From Acinetobacter sp. C32I (GTDB taxonomy: Bacteria; Pseudomonadota; Gammaproteobacteria; Pseudomonadales; Moraxellaceae), in the NCBI RefSeq assembly GCF_023702715.1, contig NZ_CP098480.1, forward strand, positions 62,001-126,000: 64,000 nt of DNA, written 5' to 3'. Numbering within the stretch: position 1 is the stretch's first letter; each line of letters opens with the position of its first letter. Made by a program: the position numbers and the translations under genes. Of the stretch, positions 46,122 through 53,662 are shown one piece after another. A model generated the notes under the pieces. That model was not told where the DNA came from. It did no database searches and saw only the letters and a list, made by a program, of their open reading frames with translations.

Positions 46122-46256
46122 TTAATGTGCACAAAATGCTTGGTTGAAGTACTCAAATAAATCAGGGGTCTGAAACCAGATTAAGATCGAAAGACTCATC
46201 AAGCACAGAAGGGTGACAAACAATAGCAACTTAAAATGACGTTCTATATTAGTCAT
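46122..46256 (-). CDS. 44-residue single-pass membrane protein coupled to MFS gene
   Basis: ATG at 46256, stop at 46122-46124. Its start overlaps the last eight bases of the MFS transporter gene (ATGACTAA). The peptide has a short charged N-terminus (MTNIERHFK), one hydrophobic helix (LLLFVTLLCLMSLSILIWF) and a polar tail. Helix, position and overlapping stop/start all suggest a small partner or regulator of the transporter. No homologue is known to me. Confidence 0.55.
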   Translation of the reverse strand: MTNIERHFKLLLFVTLLCLMSLSILIWFQTPDLFEYFNQAFCAH

Positions 46257-47454
46257 GAATCACAGCCTCTTCATTCACGAAAAGATGGATAACAACACCA
46301 AAAGCACTCAGCACTAAACAGGCGAGCCAGATCATATTGTAGTTGCCTGCAATATCATGATTGACCCCACCAAGCCAGCCACCAAAGAATGAGCCGATTT
46401 GATGAGTAAAGAACACAATACCACTGAGCATGGATAAATATTTGACCCCAAACATATTGGCCACAATCCCGTTAGTGAGCGGAACAGTGGAAAGCCAGAG
46501 TAGTCCCATAATGATCCCAAAACTATAAATGGTCAATGTGCTGAGTGGGAGCAAGAGAAAAGCAATAATGGCAATGCCGCGTAAACCGTAAAGCAGCATC
46601 AGCAGCCTAGGTTTTGAATAGCGATCACCTAACCAACCTGCACCATAGGTCCCTACAATATTAAATAGACCGACCAGTGCCAAGAATATCGTACCTGTTG
46701 TGGCATCGAAGCCATGATCTATTAAATAACCAGGTAGGTGTACGCCTAGAAATACCACTTGGAAACCACAGACCAGAAAGCCGAGCGATAACCACCAAAA
46801 AGGTTTGTGTTTTCTTGCGATATGTAAAACCTGTTTAAAGCTTAAGCTTGGTTGATTCAGCGCTTTAGGTGCGGTAGAAGAAGGGGATTTCAATAACCAA
46901 GCCAAGGGAACAATGAATGCAATAGCAAAGGCACTCACCAGTAAAGCAGAAGACCAACCAATCGTTTTAAGGAGTAACAAGGTTGAAGGCAGCATAATAA
47001 ACTGGCCAAAGGACCCCGCAGCACTGGCAATCCCCATGACCATACTGCGTTTCTCTGGTGGTGCAGCACGACCAACGGCAGAAAGCAATACTGTAAAAGA
47101 GGTCGCAGATAAGGCGAGTCCAATCACGAGTCCTAAGCTGAGGTTAAGTAAGAGTCCTGTAGAGCTAAATGCCATAAGGACTAAGCCAATAGCATAGAGT
47201 ACACCCCCCGCCATCACGACTTTTTTAGTACCGTACTTGTCAGCAATCGCACCGGTAAAGGGTTGTGCAGCCCCCCAGATCAGGTTTTGCATGGCAATCG
47301 CAAAACTAAAAATATGATGGCCCCAACCAAAACTATCGCTCATGGGGACCAGATATAAACCAAAGCCATGGCGTACACCCAATGAAAGGGCAAGAATCAG
47401 CGCACTTCCGATCAGCATATAGACCAATTGTTTGGAAAATTGAGGGTTTGACAT
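46249..47454 (-). CDS. MFS transporter
   Basis: 401 residues from the ATG at 47454. The 45-residue upstream extension (longest frame) has no binding site and odd composition. Twelve membrane helices. The MFS signature is GAIADKYGTKKVVMAGG (~residue 66), and the repeat in the second half is AGWLGDRYSKPR. It resembles YbfB/OFA-like carriers of organic anions. The substrate is unknown. It is followed by an overlapping 44-residue membrane ORF. Confidence 0.88.
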   Translation of the reverse strand: MSNPQFSKQLVYMLIGSALILALSLGVRHGFGLYLVPMSDSFGWGHHIFSFAIAMQNLIWGAAQPFTGAIADKYGTKKVVMAGGVLYAIGLVLMAFSSTGLLLNLSLGLVIGLALSATSFTVLLSAVGRAAPPEKRSMVMGIASAAGSFGQFIMLPSTLLLLKTIGWSSALLVSAFAIAFIVPLAWLLKSPSSTAPKALNQPSLSFKQVLHIARKHKPFWWLSLGFLVCGFQVVFLGVHLPGYLIDHGFDATTGTIFLALVGLFNIVGTYGAGWLGDRYSKPRLLMLLYGLRGIAIIAFLLLPLSTLTIYSFGIIMGLLWLSTVPLTNGIVANMFGVKYLSMLSGIVFFTHQIGSFFGGWLGGVNHDIAGNYNMIWLACLVLSAFGVVIHLFVNEEAVIHD

Positions 47455-47553
47455 TGTTGTTGTAATCTTGGAATAAGTGAAAAGTATTCTAAAATACTTC
47501 TCGCCATATTTCGATTCCCTGCAAAAATTATTGTGACAAGATTTAAAGTCATC

Positions 47554-47582
47554 AAAACAGTCAACTGTAAGTTGACCGTTTT
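47554..47582. terminator. Hairpin between porin and MFS genes
   Basis: AAAACAGTCAACT (47554-47566) and AGTTGACCGTTTT (47570-47582) with a three-base loop. In the minus-strand RNA only one G-U pair breaks the stem, and a U-run closes it. It could terminate the porin message. A regulator palindrome is the alternative. Confidence 0.65.
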
Positions 47583-47604
47583 GTTTCAAATGGCAGGATA
47601 TAAT

Positions 47605-48741
47605 TTAGAACTTAAGTTCCAAGCCTAATCCGACGACAGGTTGCTTGTCTTTTTTATCTGCTTGTTCAAGTGTTAAATAACCTACATAGCCATAGCTTTT
47701 CACCTGCTTATTAAAGGCATAATCAGCCCCAGCCATGATTTGTTTGGCTTTAAAATCAGCTGTGGTGTTTTTAAAGCGGGTATCATTCTGGCTATATTGT
47801 GCTTTGAGCATCCATTTTTTTGCATTTGGAAGAATATATTCGGCACCCACTAACCAACCTTGAGCATCATCAATATTATTGGCTTTTGTGGCCCATTTTA
47901 TTGCTTCAGCTGGGTCTGCATAGCTGGTTTGTTCCATTTCGGAGCGTTGATACAAGCTTTTAATCGCCAAACCATCAATCGGATTTAAACGCCCGATGGC
48001 ACGTATGGTATTTGCTGTCGCAAAAGCTTGTGCGTCGGCTGTATATGCCTGTCCTGTGGCAACATTAAGAAAGCCACGCCCTGCAAAGGTGCTCGGAATG
48101 GCCTTGTCATAACCAAGACCTGCGACAAAAAATGGATGTTCATAGACCAGACTGGCAGACCACGCATCACCTAAACCACGACCTGCGACTTTTGCACCGC
48201 CGCTGGATGTTTTAATGCCAGATGACTCTCCCGTGGCGAGCAGAGCATTGAGTTTAACCACGCCTTTAGAGAGGTGAATAACTGGCGATTCATAGAGAAC
48301 GACGTTATCGATACGGTTTTCTCCAGTCAGAATCCCGCCAATATCCGCTTTATTTGCCACATAATTATTGAAAATATCAACTGTACTTGAGAGCTGTTTG
48401 ACAGGTGTATCATGTTTACCCACTTTGATGGTGCCGAATTGACTGTCCTTTAATCCGACAAAGCGGTTTCGTTGCGTCCAGTCTGTTCCATCGCCGTCGG
48501 CACTCAATCCCCATTCAATCGCATAAACTGCGCTTAGACGCTCAGTTAGTTTCTCATCTCCTTTAATACCCAGATAGGAGCTATTGGAGCTGATTTCCCA
48601 CACATCTTTATTTGAGCTGTTGGCATTTTTTTCTGGTAAGTAATCGATACTGGTATCAATTTCCCCATAAAGTGTTGCTGCTGCAAAAGTAGTATTGGCT
48701 AGACATCCGAGCATGGCAAAGCCAAGAAGATTCAATTTCAT
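47605..48741 (-). CDS. Gram-negative general porin
   Basis: 378 residues from the ATG at 48741, with AGGGGTCGCAAT upstream. Signal peptide MKLNLLGFAMLGCLANTTFA. The mature start ATLYGEIDTSIDYLPEKN, then YLGIKGDEKLTERLSAVYAIEWGLSAD and NRFVGLKDSQFGTIKVGKHDTPVKQL, is the 16-strand Porin_4 pattern. The C-terminus ends in aromatic F (GLGLELKF), as outer-membrane proteins do. It lies downstream of the nitrate transporter in the same direction and may pass nitrate or other small anions (inference from position). Confidence 0.9.
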   Translation of the reverse strand: MKLNLLGFAMLGCLANTTFAAATLYGEIDTSIDYLPEKNANSSNKDVWEISSNSSYLGIKGDEKLTERLSAVYAIEWGLSADGDGTDWTQRNRFVGLKDSQFGTIKVGKHDTPVKQLSSTVDIFNNYVANKADIGGILTGENRIDNVVLYESPVIHLSKGVVKLNALLATGESSGIKTSSGGAKVAGRGLGDAWSASLVYEHPFFVAGLGYDKAIPSTFAGRGFLNVATGQAYTADAQAFATANTIRAIGRLNPIDGLAIKSLYQRSEMEQTSYADPAEAIKWATKANNIDDAQGWLVGAEYILPNAKKWMLKAQYSQNDTRFKNTTADFKAKQIMAGADYAFNKQVKSYGYVGYLTLEQADKKDKQPVVGLGLELKF

Positions 48742-48787
48742 ATTGCGACCCCTGAAAAATGGTGTTGAAGTATTTAATTTGAAAACC

Positions 48788-48810
48788 GTGTGGGAGGGTT
48801 TATCCCACAC
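48788..48810 (-). other. Intercistronic hairpin between nitrate transporter and porin genes
   Basis: GTGTGGGA (48788-48795) and TCCCACAC (48803-48810), perfect, 7-base loop. The minus-strand RNA continues GGTTTTC, so a weak terminator or processing site is possible. Confidence 0.7.
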
Positions 48811-48824
48811 AAAATATGTTGTGA

Positions 48825-50171
48825 TTAAGCGAGAGAGTTACGTTCCAATACAGCTTGCTCGAACAATTTTTGTTCTTTGGCTTTATGTTCGACCGAGAAG
48901 CGAATGAGGATGACACTGAATGCGGCTACGGTCACCAAAGCACCTAAAATCATCAGGCAGGTTTGTACGTCGAGTAAACCTTTGAGTAAGAAACCTGCAG
49001 CAACAGCACCAACATTACCGCCTGCACCGATGATACCTGCGACACCACCGAGAGCATTGCGATCAATAAATGGCACAAGCGCGTAAGTTGCACCACAAGA
49101 CATATGGGTAAATAAGGCAAAAACGGTCATGCTGATAATTGCAAGTGCTACGGTATTCATCTGAGAAAAAAGTATGAGGAATAAGCCTTCACATAGGATC
49201 ATGATAAACAATACTTTTGTTCGACCATCTAAACCTTTTGATATTGCAACTTTATCTGAAAGATAACCTCCCAATGCACGGGCAAATAGGGCAAGCAGAC
49301 CGAAAATACCCGCAGTCAAACCTGCTTCTTTGAGCCCCATATTGAAGTGATCGACATAGTACATGGCGGCAATGTTGTGAATAAAAATCTCGATACCAAA
49401 ACAGGCAGCATAAGAAACAAATAGAATCCAGACACGATAATTACGTGCAGCTTGCATCAGAATCGCAACACCACCTTTTTTACCGGCACCAACTTCGATG
49501 CCTTGTTCACGCAACTCTTTAAAATTGCCTTGAGGACAATCTTGAGTGAGTTTCCAGTATAGTACGCCAACGATTAGCATCATGATGCCTGGTACAAGTA
49601 GCGCAATTCTCCATCCCATCGCTTGTTCCACACCAAACATGACGATTGCACCTAAAATAAGAGGCATAATTGCTTGGGTTGCACCACCACCTGCATTTCC
49701 CCAACCAGCAGAAGCTGCATTGGCTGTGCCTACCACGTTTGGTGCAAACATCACACTGGTATGGTATTGGGTAATTACAAAGCTCGCGCCAATTGCACCA
49801 ATCAATAAGCGGAAGAATAAGAAGGATTCATAGGTATTTGCAGCAGCAACACCAAAAACAGGAATACTGCCAAGCAGTAAAAGGGCAGTGTAGGTTTTGC
49901 GTGGGCCGTATTTATCACAGAGTGGGCCAACGATGAGTCGAATTAAAATGGTAATCGCAACGGCTGCAATGTTGATATTGGCAATTTGATCTTTGGTTAA
50001 ATTGAACTCGCCTTTAATGACAGGCATAAGTGGTGCGCAGGCAAACCATGCGAAGAAACAGACAAAGAATGCCAGCCATGTCATATGGAACGCACGCATG
50101 GCAGGTGTTGAAAAACTAAATAATTTTATTTCGGTGGCTTTTTTTGCATCAATATTCATTGGTGAAGACAT
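48825..50171 (-). CDS. narK: Nitrate/nitrite transporter (NarK/NasA family MFS)
   Basis: 448 residues, twelve membrane helices. The two nitrate signatures are AGWGNAGGGATQAIMP (~residue 155) and GAGGNVGAVAAGF (~395). Arginines for anion binding are in the expected first-half (FFRLLIG) region. It should import nitrate across the inner membrane. Upstream are a sigma-54 promoter and a two-hairpin leader, both typical of assimilatory nitrate genes, so this is likely a NasA-like carrier. A nitrite-extrusion role is the alternative. Confidence 0.92.
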   Translation of the reverse strand: MSSPMNIDAKKATEIKLFSFSTPAMRAFHMTWLAFFVCFFAWFACAPLMPVIKGEFNLTKDQIANINIAAVAITILIRLIVGPLCDKYGPRKTYTALLLLGSIPVFGVAAANTYESFLFFRLLIGAIGASFVITQYHTSVMFAPNVVGTANAASAGWGNAGGGATQAIMPLILGAIVMFGVEQAMGWRIALLVPGIMMLIVGVLYWKLTQDCPQGNFKELREQGIEVGAGKKGGVAILMQAARNYRVWILFVSYAACFGIEIFIHNIAAMYYVDHFNMGLKEAGLTAGIFGLLALFARALGGYLSDKVAISKGLDGRTKVLFIMILCEGLFLILFSQMNTVALAIISMTVFALFTHMSCGATYALVPFIDRNALGGVAGIIGAGGNVGAVAAGFLLKGLLDVQTCLMILGALVTVAAFSVILIRFSVEHKAKEQKLFEQAVLERNSLA

Positions 50172-50202
50172 AACTTTCTCCTGAACTGCACGTCATTTAT
50201 TT

Positions 50203-50230
50203 TGCTTAGTCATTACGCTGCTTAAGCAAA
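50203..50230 (-). other. Leader hairpin just upstream of the nitrate transporter
   Basis: TTTGCTTA and TAAGCAAA (8-bp stem) enclose 14 bases in the 5' untranslated region. There is no U-run after it, so it is not a simple terminator. AAUGAC also occurs in its loop. Confidence 0.5.
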
Positions 50231-50239
50231 TCGAACAGA

Positions 50240-50257
50240 ACGGACGTCGTTGGCCGT
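50240..50257 (-). promoter_or_regulatory. ANTAR-type leader hairpin P2
   Basis: RNA ACGGCC AACGAC GUCCGU: six-base loop with A at position 1 and G at position 4. The stem is six positions with one C-U mismatch. Confidence 0.55.
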
Positions 50258-50272
50258 CATCAAATTGTTTTA

Positions 50273-50290
50273 TGAATCGTCATTGATTCA
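50273..50290 (-). promoter_or_regulatory. ANTAR-type leader hairpin P1
   Basis: RNA UGAAUC AAUGAC GAUUCA: perfect 6-bp stem and six-base loop with A1 and G4. It lies about 15 nt upstream of P2 and a few bases after the predicted transcription start. Confidence 0.6.
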
Positions 50291-50305: not shown

Positions 50306-50321
50306 AGCAAGTGCCGTGCCA
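50306..50321 (-). promoter_or_regulatory. Sigma-54 (RpoN) promoter of the nitrate transporter
   Basis: The minus strand reads TGGCACGGCACTTGCT, matching the consensus TGGCAC-N5-TTGCT at every fixed base, including GG(-24) and GC(-12) with correct spacing. It is oriented toward the transporter gene, with a predicted start near 50295. Confidence 0.8.
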
Positions 50322-52675: not shown

Positions 52676-52842
52676 GATCTCTAAAAACTTTTGGTAATTT
52701 GCAAGCGTCTATGGTATAAATAGCCGCCTATTTTATCAAATGCTTTTCGTGACTATCTTTTATTATTTATGAAAAGATTTTACGAAGATATCTGATAACA
52801 ATAGTCGTAAAAAAATCCGCACATATATCGACACATTACTCT

Positions 52843-52890
52843 GGGTGCCTAGCAATAGGTGGAGAATGCGGATATATGGAGGCCTAACCC
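52843..52890 (+). promoter_or_regulatory. Candidate S2-binding leader of rpsB
   Basis: GGGT (52843-52846) can pair with ACCC (52887-52890). Inside is CCTA gcaa TAGG, a 4-bp stem with a GNRA tetraloop, followed by GGAGAATGCGGATATATGGAGGCC. rpsB leaders of gammaproteobacteria fold for S2 autoregulation, so a similar role is likely but unproven here. Confidence 0.5.
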
Positions 52891-52909
52891 AAACTTTAAG
52901 GTAAAGAAA

Positions 52910-53662
52910 ATGGCAGATTACAACGTAAGCATGCGCGACCTTCTTCAAGCAGGCGCACACTTTGGTCACCAAACTCGTTTCTGGAACCCAAAAATGCGTC
53001 AATACATTTTTGGCGCGCGTAACAAAATTCACATCATCAACCTTGAGCACACTGTTCCTGCGTTAAATGATGCTTTGAACTTTGTTAACAATCTTGCAAG
53101 CAAAAAGAACAAAGTATTGTTCGTTGGTACTAAACGTGCTGCTTCTAACATCATCCGTGAACAAGCTCAACGCGCTGGTCAACCATATGTAGATCACCGT
53201 TGGTTAGGTGGTATGTTGACGAACTGGAAAACACTTCGCCAATCTATCAACCGTTTAAAAGACCTTCAAACTCAATCTCAAGACGGTACTTTTGCTAAGC
53301 TTACTAAACGTGAAGCTTTAGAGCGTACTCGTGAGATGGAAAAACTTGAACGTGCTTTAGGCGGCGTTAAGAACATGGGTGGTTTACCTGACGCATTATT
53401 TGTAATCGACGTTGATCACGAAGCGATTGCAATCAAAGAAGCGAAAAACTTAGGTATTCCTGTAATCGGTATCGTTGATACAAACTCTAACCCAGACAAC
53501 GTTGATTACGTTATTCCGGGTAACGACGATGCGATTCGTGCAGTAACTTTGTATGCTTCAGCTATGGCTGATGCGATTCTTGCTGGTAAAGAATACGCTC
53601 AATCACAAGCTAATGCACAAGCAAAAGGCGATGATGCTGCGAAAGACGCATCTGAGGCTTAA
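52910..53662 (+). CDS. rpsB: 30S ribosomal protein S2
   Basis: 250 residues from the ATG at 52910, with TTTAAGGTAAAGAAA upstream. The start matches the family ([29 protein letters not shown]). Further marks: [17 protein letters not shown] and [29 protein letters not shown]. The C-terminal tail is alanine/lysine-rich. tsf follows, separated by a hairpin. Confidence 0.99.

Follow-up and report, generated by a model that had tools for sequence, protein, structure and literature searches.

In Paracoccus, nitrate or nitrite releases the ANTAR protein NasT from its partner NasS (PMC3795266, PMC5424462, PMC6759348). The closest described leaders, those of Pseudomonas nalA-nirBD and Paracoccus nasA, combine NasT and NasS with a hairpin leader and nitrate assimilation genes, and nalA-nirBD is in addition sigma-54-dependent; in the accessible parts of these sources, both are described as systems of transcription termination and antitermination (PMC3795266, PMC5424462, PMC12830290). 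Here we analyze the leader of a narK gene in a stretch of 64,000 nucleotides of Acinetobacter sp. C32I (contig NZ_CP098480.1, positions 62,001 to 126,000), hereafter the window. The narK leader shares the NasS-NasT pair, the hairpins, and the nitrate-related gene with the described leaders, and the sigma-54-type promoter with that of Pseudomonas. Unlike them, it has no intrinsic terminator, and its second hairpin, P2, can pair with the Shine-Dalgarno sequence.

NasT and the architecture of the narK leader

The preliminary description of the window had proposed that an ANTAR protein, NasR or NasT, controls narK and that the lack of any such protein in the genome would speak against this. A search of the 4.19-Mb genome that contains the window found exactly one ANTAR-domain protein (PF03861, 64.9 bits). 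It is composed of a receiver (REC) domain and an ANTAR domain, and its neighbor is a NasS-type protein with similarity to NMT1, which is the gene arrangement of NasS-NasT systems. Because of this domain composition and this neighbor, the NasT half of the proposal stands, while NasR is rejected as the regulator. A second narK, 85% identical to that of the window, is divergent from the nasT/nasS-like pair and is followed by nirB, whose product matches the NirB model above its cut-off. Judged from the sequence, the regulon of the single NasT in this genome very likely comprises the two narK copies, one of them followed by nirB. An ANTAR regulator of Acinetobacter baumannii, AvnR, is cited for amino acid metabolism and virulence in the part of the literature accessible to us.

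Table 1. Features of the narK leader in the order of transcription, with positions in the window.
Feature	Position	Strand	Description	Evidence
Sigma-54-type promoter element (-24/-12)	50307..50321	-	TGGCACGGCACTTGC	Sequence; comparison of narK leaders; sigma-54 protein in the genome
P1 hairpin	50273..50290	-	6-bp stem, loop AAUGAC	Sequence, fold, stem covariation (44 leaders)
Linker P1-P2	50258..50272	-	15 nt	
P2 hairpin	50240..50257	-	Loop AACGAC; second position from the loop is a C.U mismatch	
5' side of the helix bringing the Shine-Dalgarno region to P2	50232..50238	-	CUGUUCG	Pairing analysis
P3 variable hairpin	50201..50230	-	UUUGCUUA...UAAGCAAA; no U-run behind it	
3' side of the CUGUUCG helix	50186..50192	-	CGUGCAG	Pairing analysis
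Shine-Dalgarno sequence	50178..50182	-	AGGAG	Predicted pairing with UCC of P2 in protein-free RNA
narK-type nitrate/nitrite MFS transporter	48825..50171	-	TIGR00886, 304.6 bits, just under the 311.7 cut-off	

Direct reading and measurement of the minus strand gave TGAATC-AATGAC-GATTCA for P1 (50290 to 50273) and ACGGCC-AACGAC-GTCCGT for P2 (50257 to 50240). The stem of P2 is imperfect, with A-U, C-G, G-C, and G-C pairs, a C.U mismatch, and then a C-G pair beside the loop. In P1 and P2 alike, A occupies loop position 1 and G loop position 4 on a stem of at least 3 bp, which is the pattern of ANTAR-target hairpins; the two hexaloop hairpins and their 15-nt spacing are thus as they had been described. 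Across 30 leaders of the window type, the linker measures 10-15 nt. Among 44 aligned leaders, the P1 stem covaries, one of its pairs being G-C in 29 and A-U in 13, and the mismatched position of P2 shows no standard pair in any of the 44, with U.C replacing C.U in four. No Rfam family was reached in the window leader at gathering thresholds.

A sigma-54-type element precedes all 102 narK leaders parsed, and the genome encodes a protein with a sigma-54 DNA-binding domain. Transcription from such promoters starts 12 nt beyond the last C of the element. Counted in this way from TGGCACGGCACTTGC, P1 begins at about +6, that is, about 5-6 nt past the expected start, in agreement with the distance of about 5 nt given previously. 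The NarK proteins of the window and of G024 share 100% identity (rounded). Downstream of narK on the same strand, a porin gene and then an MFS carrier gene follow at gaps of 14-15 nt (window 46249-48810, minus strand; longest open frames, whose true starts may lie further in), and nitrate control may extend over this three-gene transport operon, narK-porin-MFS. The window also holds an Rfam t44 RNA (RF00127) at 52800-52888 on the plus strand, where the gene at 52859-53662 begins; we take this gene to encode ribosomal protein S2.

Conservation of the double hairpin and its match with ANTAR proteins

Conservation of the loops in related narK leaders had also been named beforehand as a point on which the reading could fail. 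In the genus Acinetobacter, the double hairpin, defined as a fixed-pattern P2 together with a P1 hexaloop hairpin, lies upstream of 103 of the 104 narK loci read, the exception being a second NarK paralogue in G026 (L105). The loci were drawn from 107 matches, leaving out those in G025 and G030 and, in G010, the latter part of a window-type narK copy that is divided into two overlapping frames (G010:C1:348108-349450). Because P1 loops had to open with AA or GA and carry G at position 4, and P2 loops to have AA and G at position 4, the loop tallies are conditional on these patterns, and the evidence lies in the 103 of 104 loci that pass. The first loop begins with G in two of the 103 leaders, and three have no more than 2-3 uninterrupted pairs in the P1 stem.

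The covariance search suggested at the outset was run with a model built from 44 of the 103 leaders (below 88% similarity), the same set as was used for the alignments. In the 4.19-Mb genome, this model gave two matches at E<=1, the window leader (5.4e-12) and the leader of the other narK (2.7e-11), both scores being partly circular because both leaders are among the 44. Applied to the congeners at E<=1e-3, the model matched 83 of 83 genomes with an ANTAR protein vs 1 of 16 without (Fisher 7e-17, relatedness ignored), a comparison that is partly circular where narK is present because the model was trained on narK leaders. Its independent part consists of the 16 ANTAR-negative genomes and of G002 and G098, which have an ANTAR protein and no narK match; in these two, the motif is present ahead of nirB. 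Within the genus sample of 99 genomes, NarK was detected in 81 (E<=1e-60) and an ANTAR protein in 83, all of the 81 lying within the 83.

The sole ANTAR-negative match, in G094 (E 2.7e-4), has a P2 loop without G at position 4. This locus (L131) lies in a genome with neither an ANTAR nor a NarK match, yet a promoter-like element and a degraded motif are still recognizable there, as would fit decay once NasT had been lost. An order-wide search of 194 genomes returned 7 genomes at E<=0.1, the window's own included, with a best outside E of 0.005. The P2 pattern matched at least 119 stretches in reference genomes; among the matches listed, 78 of 80 are labelled Acinetobacter, and the remaining two are one Moraxellaceae MAG and one other MAG.

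Because the motif is conserved, P1 covaries, the ANTAR protein has a NasS-like neighbor, and the motif tracks the presence of ANTAR proteins, we infer that NasT binds the narK leader of the window, which is very likely a NasT target.

Predicted pairing of P2 with the start of narK and the step controlled

In a typical narK leader, P2 is followed by CUGNUCG, a variable hairpin, CGNNCAG, and the Shine-Dalgarno sequence. CUGNUCG is complementary to CGNNCAG, and the strand UCCG of P2 is complementary to the Shine-Dalgarno side. The predicted probability of pairing between the Shine-Dalgarno sequence and the 3' strand of P2 is 0.46 in the window leader itself, averages 0.43 over the 30 window-type leaders (above 0.3 in 25), and averages 0.39 over 72 other leaders (above 0.3 in 48), compared with 0.01 in a control that used the start regions of other window genes (120 and 292 chimeras). 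In 12 window-type rows, UCCG/CAGGA is paired in 11 or 12 of the 12 at each position, and CUG/CAG and CG/CG are paired in all 12. Alignment columns 46 and 146 hold C-G in 39 of the 44 leaders, U-A in two, U-G in two, and another combination in one; as column 46 pairs with column 146, the P2 mismatch conserved in all 44 fits an alternative partner. Leaders of the nasT-linked type, which usually lie next to nasT, show a further contact: minimum-energy folds such as that of L051 also pair the start region (GGCUAUGUCUUCAAAUUU) with the stretch made up of the linker and the other P2 strand, the 5' one (AAAUUUGUAAGACGGCC). In the fold predicted for the free RNA, narK codons 1-3 can likewise be paired with the 3' end of the linker and the start of P2, a pairing that is weak in the window leader.

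The named OFF helices are paired in 82.9% of cells vs 30-41% when slid, and their covariation score is 0.107 vs 0.083 +- 0.007 for shuffles and no more than 0.071 for slid controls. Double changes supporting these helices, found in 16 cells, were not above the slid controls (4-21), and the RNAalifold consensus of the 44 leaders contains P1 and P2 only.

These pairings suggest a mechanism that would begin with a NasT target site at the start of the narK mRNA. While nitrate and nitrite are absent, NasS would hold NasT, as transferred to this genus from Paracoccus. In the protein-free leader, the 3' strand of P2 (UCC) would pair with AGGA of the Shine-Dalgarno sequence, with the helix CUGUUCG/CGUGCAG alongside; in the paralogue linked to nasT, the start codon region would be paired as well, with the linker and the P2 5' strand. 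When nitrate is present, freed NasT would capture P1 and P2, P2 would close, the start region would open more easily, and translation would begin. The predicted pairing of P2 with the Shine-Dalgarno sequence and the predicted closure of P1/P2 are mutually exclusive. By analogy, we infer that the signal, nitrate or nitrite, acts on the narK leader via NasT.

The effect of closing P1/P2 was calculated for 99 distinct leaders of the 102 parsed (without L110) by purely thermodynamic folding, in which co-transcriptional folding and the protein are ignored; 33 of the 99 entered a control with foreign start regions. Closing lowered the cost of opening the start region from 13.7 to 7.7 kcal/mol in 69 mostly nasT-linked leaders, a mean drop of 6.1 kcal/mol, and from 10.1 to 7.4 kcal/mol in the 30 window-type leaders. 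The group of 69 includes two window-type leaders (L037 and L109); without both, the mean coupling is 6.11 over 67. When the 33 leaders were joined to 15 foreign start regions, the foreign coupling means were 0.3-2.4 kcal/mol. The coupling with the own start region exceeded the own foreign mean in 23 of 23 non-window-type leaders; 3 of 10 window-type leaders lay below theirs, and single foreign start regions reached up to 11.1 kcal/mol. For the window leader, the coupling of 1.9 kcal/mol vs 1.4 +- 1.6 with foreign start regions is not above the controls. Swaps between species gave a similar division, with own 5.64 vs swapped 4.32 in 32 non-window-type leaders (reached in 0 of 5000 permutations) and own 2.46 vs swapped 2.37 in 12 window-type leaders (p 0.38).

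Accessibility of the Shine-Dalgarno sequence was rejected as a test of the switch since it gives no support, whereas the opening cost of the whole start region does. In the window leader, the Shine-Dalgarno sequence is no less exposed than usual (0.50 unpaired vs 0.40 in 15 other window genes), and closing P1/P2 hardly frees it (0.50 to 0.57). On closing, mean accessibility moves from 0.31 to 0.35 in the 30 window-type leaders (14 up, 9 down) and falls from 0.43 to 0.33 in 68 other leaders (42 down, 16 up), where other local folds form. Taken as predictions, these folds give good support to a translational reading for the nasT-linked type and weak support for the window leader, where the conservation and specificity of the pairing between the Shine-Dalgarno sequence and P2 are the main evidence. 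For the narK leaders as a whole, we lean slightly toward NasT-activated translation as the controlled step.

Antitermination is the reported mode of NasT in Pseudomonas, Paracoccus (as a proposal), and Bradyrhizobium, as far as the accessible text of the sources goes (PMC3795266, PMC5424462, PMC12830290), and NasT could act in this way here too, if the leader or the first part of narK holds a terminator of a Rho-dependent or unconventional kind; we judge this possible but rather unlikely. A terminator scan around the window leader found no U-run terminator after P2, as had been noted previously, and no intrinsic terminator overlapping P2, the mark of ANTAR transcription attenuation. The same holds for most of the genus, as 95 of the 103 narK leaders have no terminator-like site (defined as a hairpin at or below -8 kcal/mol that is followed by a U-rich tail) between P2 and the ATG. 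The conserved element downstream of P2 that is complementary to the Shine-Dalgarno region also argues against antitermination. In the other eight leaders, the tails are mostly short and AUUUAU-like; the strongest site, in G016, reaches -14.8 kcal/mol with AUUUUAUAUA, and three of the eight start inside P2 at -8.6 to -10.7 kcal/mol. Against the proposed mechanism as a whole stand one terminator-like site inside narK at 50009-50026, though close to the shuffle level (0.5 expected in shuffles of the region), and the long linker of the window leader, 15 nt; linkers in the EutV system measure 5-12 nt, and 14 nt impaired induction there, according to the accessible part of the source (PMC3369931). 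Repression of narK translation by bound NasT is improbable. In the available portion of the mycobacterial work, ANTAR-target RNAs overlapping the ribosome-binding site do repress (PMC8164766), but P2 of the window leader ends 57 nt upstream of the Shine-Dalgarno sequence, so the motif leaves it uncovered, and closed P1/P2 lowers the predicted opening cost of the start region. That the hairpins arose by chance or have another role, such as mRNA stability, is very improbable: the window leader as a whole is indeed no more stable than shuffled sequence (z -0.81), but the conservation at 103 of 104 loci, the covariation of P1, and the match with ANTAR presence argue against it.

Sequences of other NasT leaders do suggest antitermination for targets other than narK. 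P2-overlapping U-tract terminators of -23.2 and -25.9 kcal/mol are present in substrate-binding-protein gene leaders of G091 and G096, and a G245 leader from another family of the order has a P2-overlapping terminator of -33.2 kcal/mol. The corresponding leader in G021 reaches -7.8 kcal/mol, below the pass of the scan, with complementary sequence visible by eye. G021, G091, and G096 each have narK leaders and one ANTAR match. Their substrate-binding-protein genes (L126, L127, and L128) are NMT1-like by a family search in G021, presumably nrtA, and each has the NasT motif together with a sigma-54-like element; the three leaders show couplings of 1.3 to 2.7 kcal/mol, equalled by 1 to 5 foreign starts. 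We tentatively suggest that, in some relatives, one NasT may combine classic antitermination on the substrate-binding-protein gene with a natural translational ON switch on narK, in which the P2 strands serve as anti-start and anti-Shine-Dalgarno sequences. Such doubling would explain the P2 mismatch kept in 44 of 44 leaders.

NasT leaders also occur ahead of further genes. At L123, L124, and L125, narK is lost or truncated and the leader is retained upstream of nirB, from which a short reading frame separates it; at L129 and L130 (G086 and G042), a GTG-started short frame comes first and a molybdopterin oxidoreductase gene follows. This enzyme is probably an assimilatory nitrate reductase and the gene presumably nasA; in the family search, its partial frame did not reach the cut-off set for assimilatory nitrate reductase models. 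With the putative short reading frames taken as starts, the coupling in the nirB leaders (G002 and G009) and the molybdopterin oxidoreductase leaders (G086 and G042) ranges between 2.5 and 6.2 kcal/mol, and for each of them 0 to 3 of the 17 foreign start regions gave as much. A narK relic leader in G098 has a coupling of 4.4 kcal/mol, equalled by one foreign start region.

Comparison with known ANTAR-controlled leaders

In a literature search that was thin on subscription journals, no publication was found that describes control of Acinetobacter narK by NasT or an action of NasT on translation. NmPAL carries an ANTAR domain. In the engineered NmPAL riboptoregulator, a protein bound to its aptamer relieves a cis-RNA looped onto the Shine-Dalgarno sequence, which resembles the reading of narK proposed here; the device differs in being synthetic and light-driven and in using another aptamer, as described in the accessible part of the report (PMC11381354). 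The mycobacterial and actinobacterial ANTAR-target RNAs, in the sections of the source at hand, are likewise cases in which an ANTAR protein is proposed or shown to act on translation (PMC8164766). However, their motif covers the ribosome-binding site and binding represses, whereas on narK binding would release the start region. Like the narK leader, the EutV/eut, NasR/nasF, and AmiR/ami leaders have two hexaloop hairpins with A at position 1 and G at position 4, the second of which competes with a downstream fold; in those systems, the competing fold is an intrinsic terminator, according to the available text (PMC3369931, PMC8934654).

The authors of a 2012 search for the ANTAR motif suggested, in the part of their report available, that matches without a terminator might act on translation initiation (PMC3369931). 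Two related genomes supply a built-in control, a NasT leader of the terminator type, and the narK leaders of Acinetobacter offer a conserved and cheaply testable case of that suggestion in the control of nitrate metabolism.
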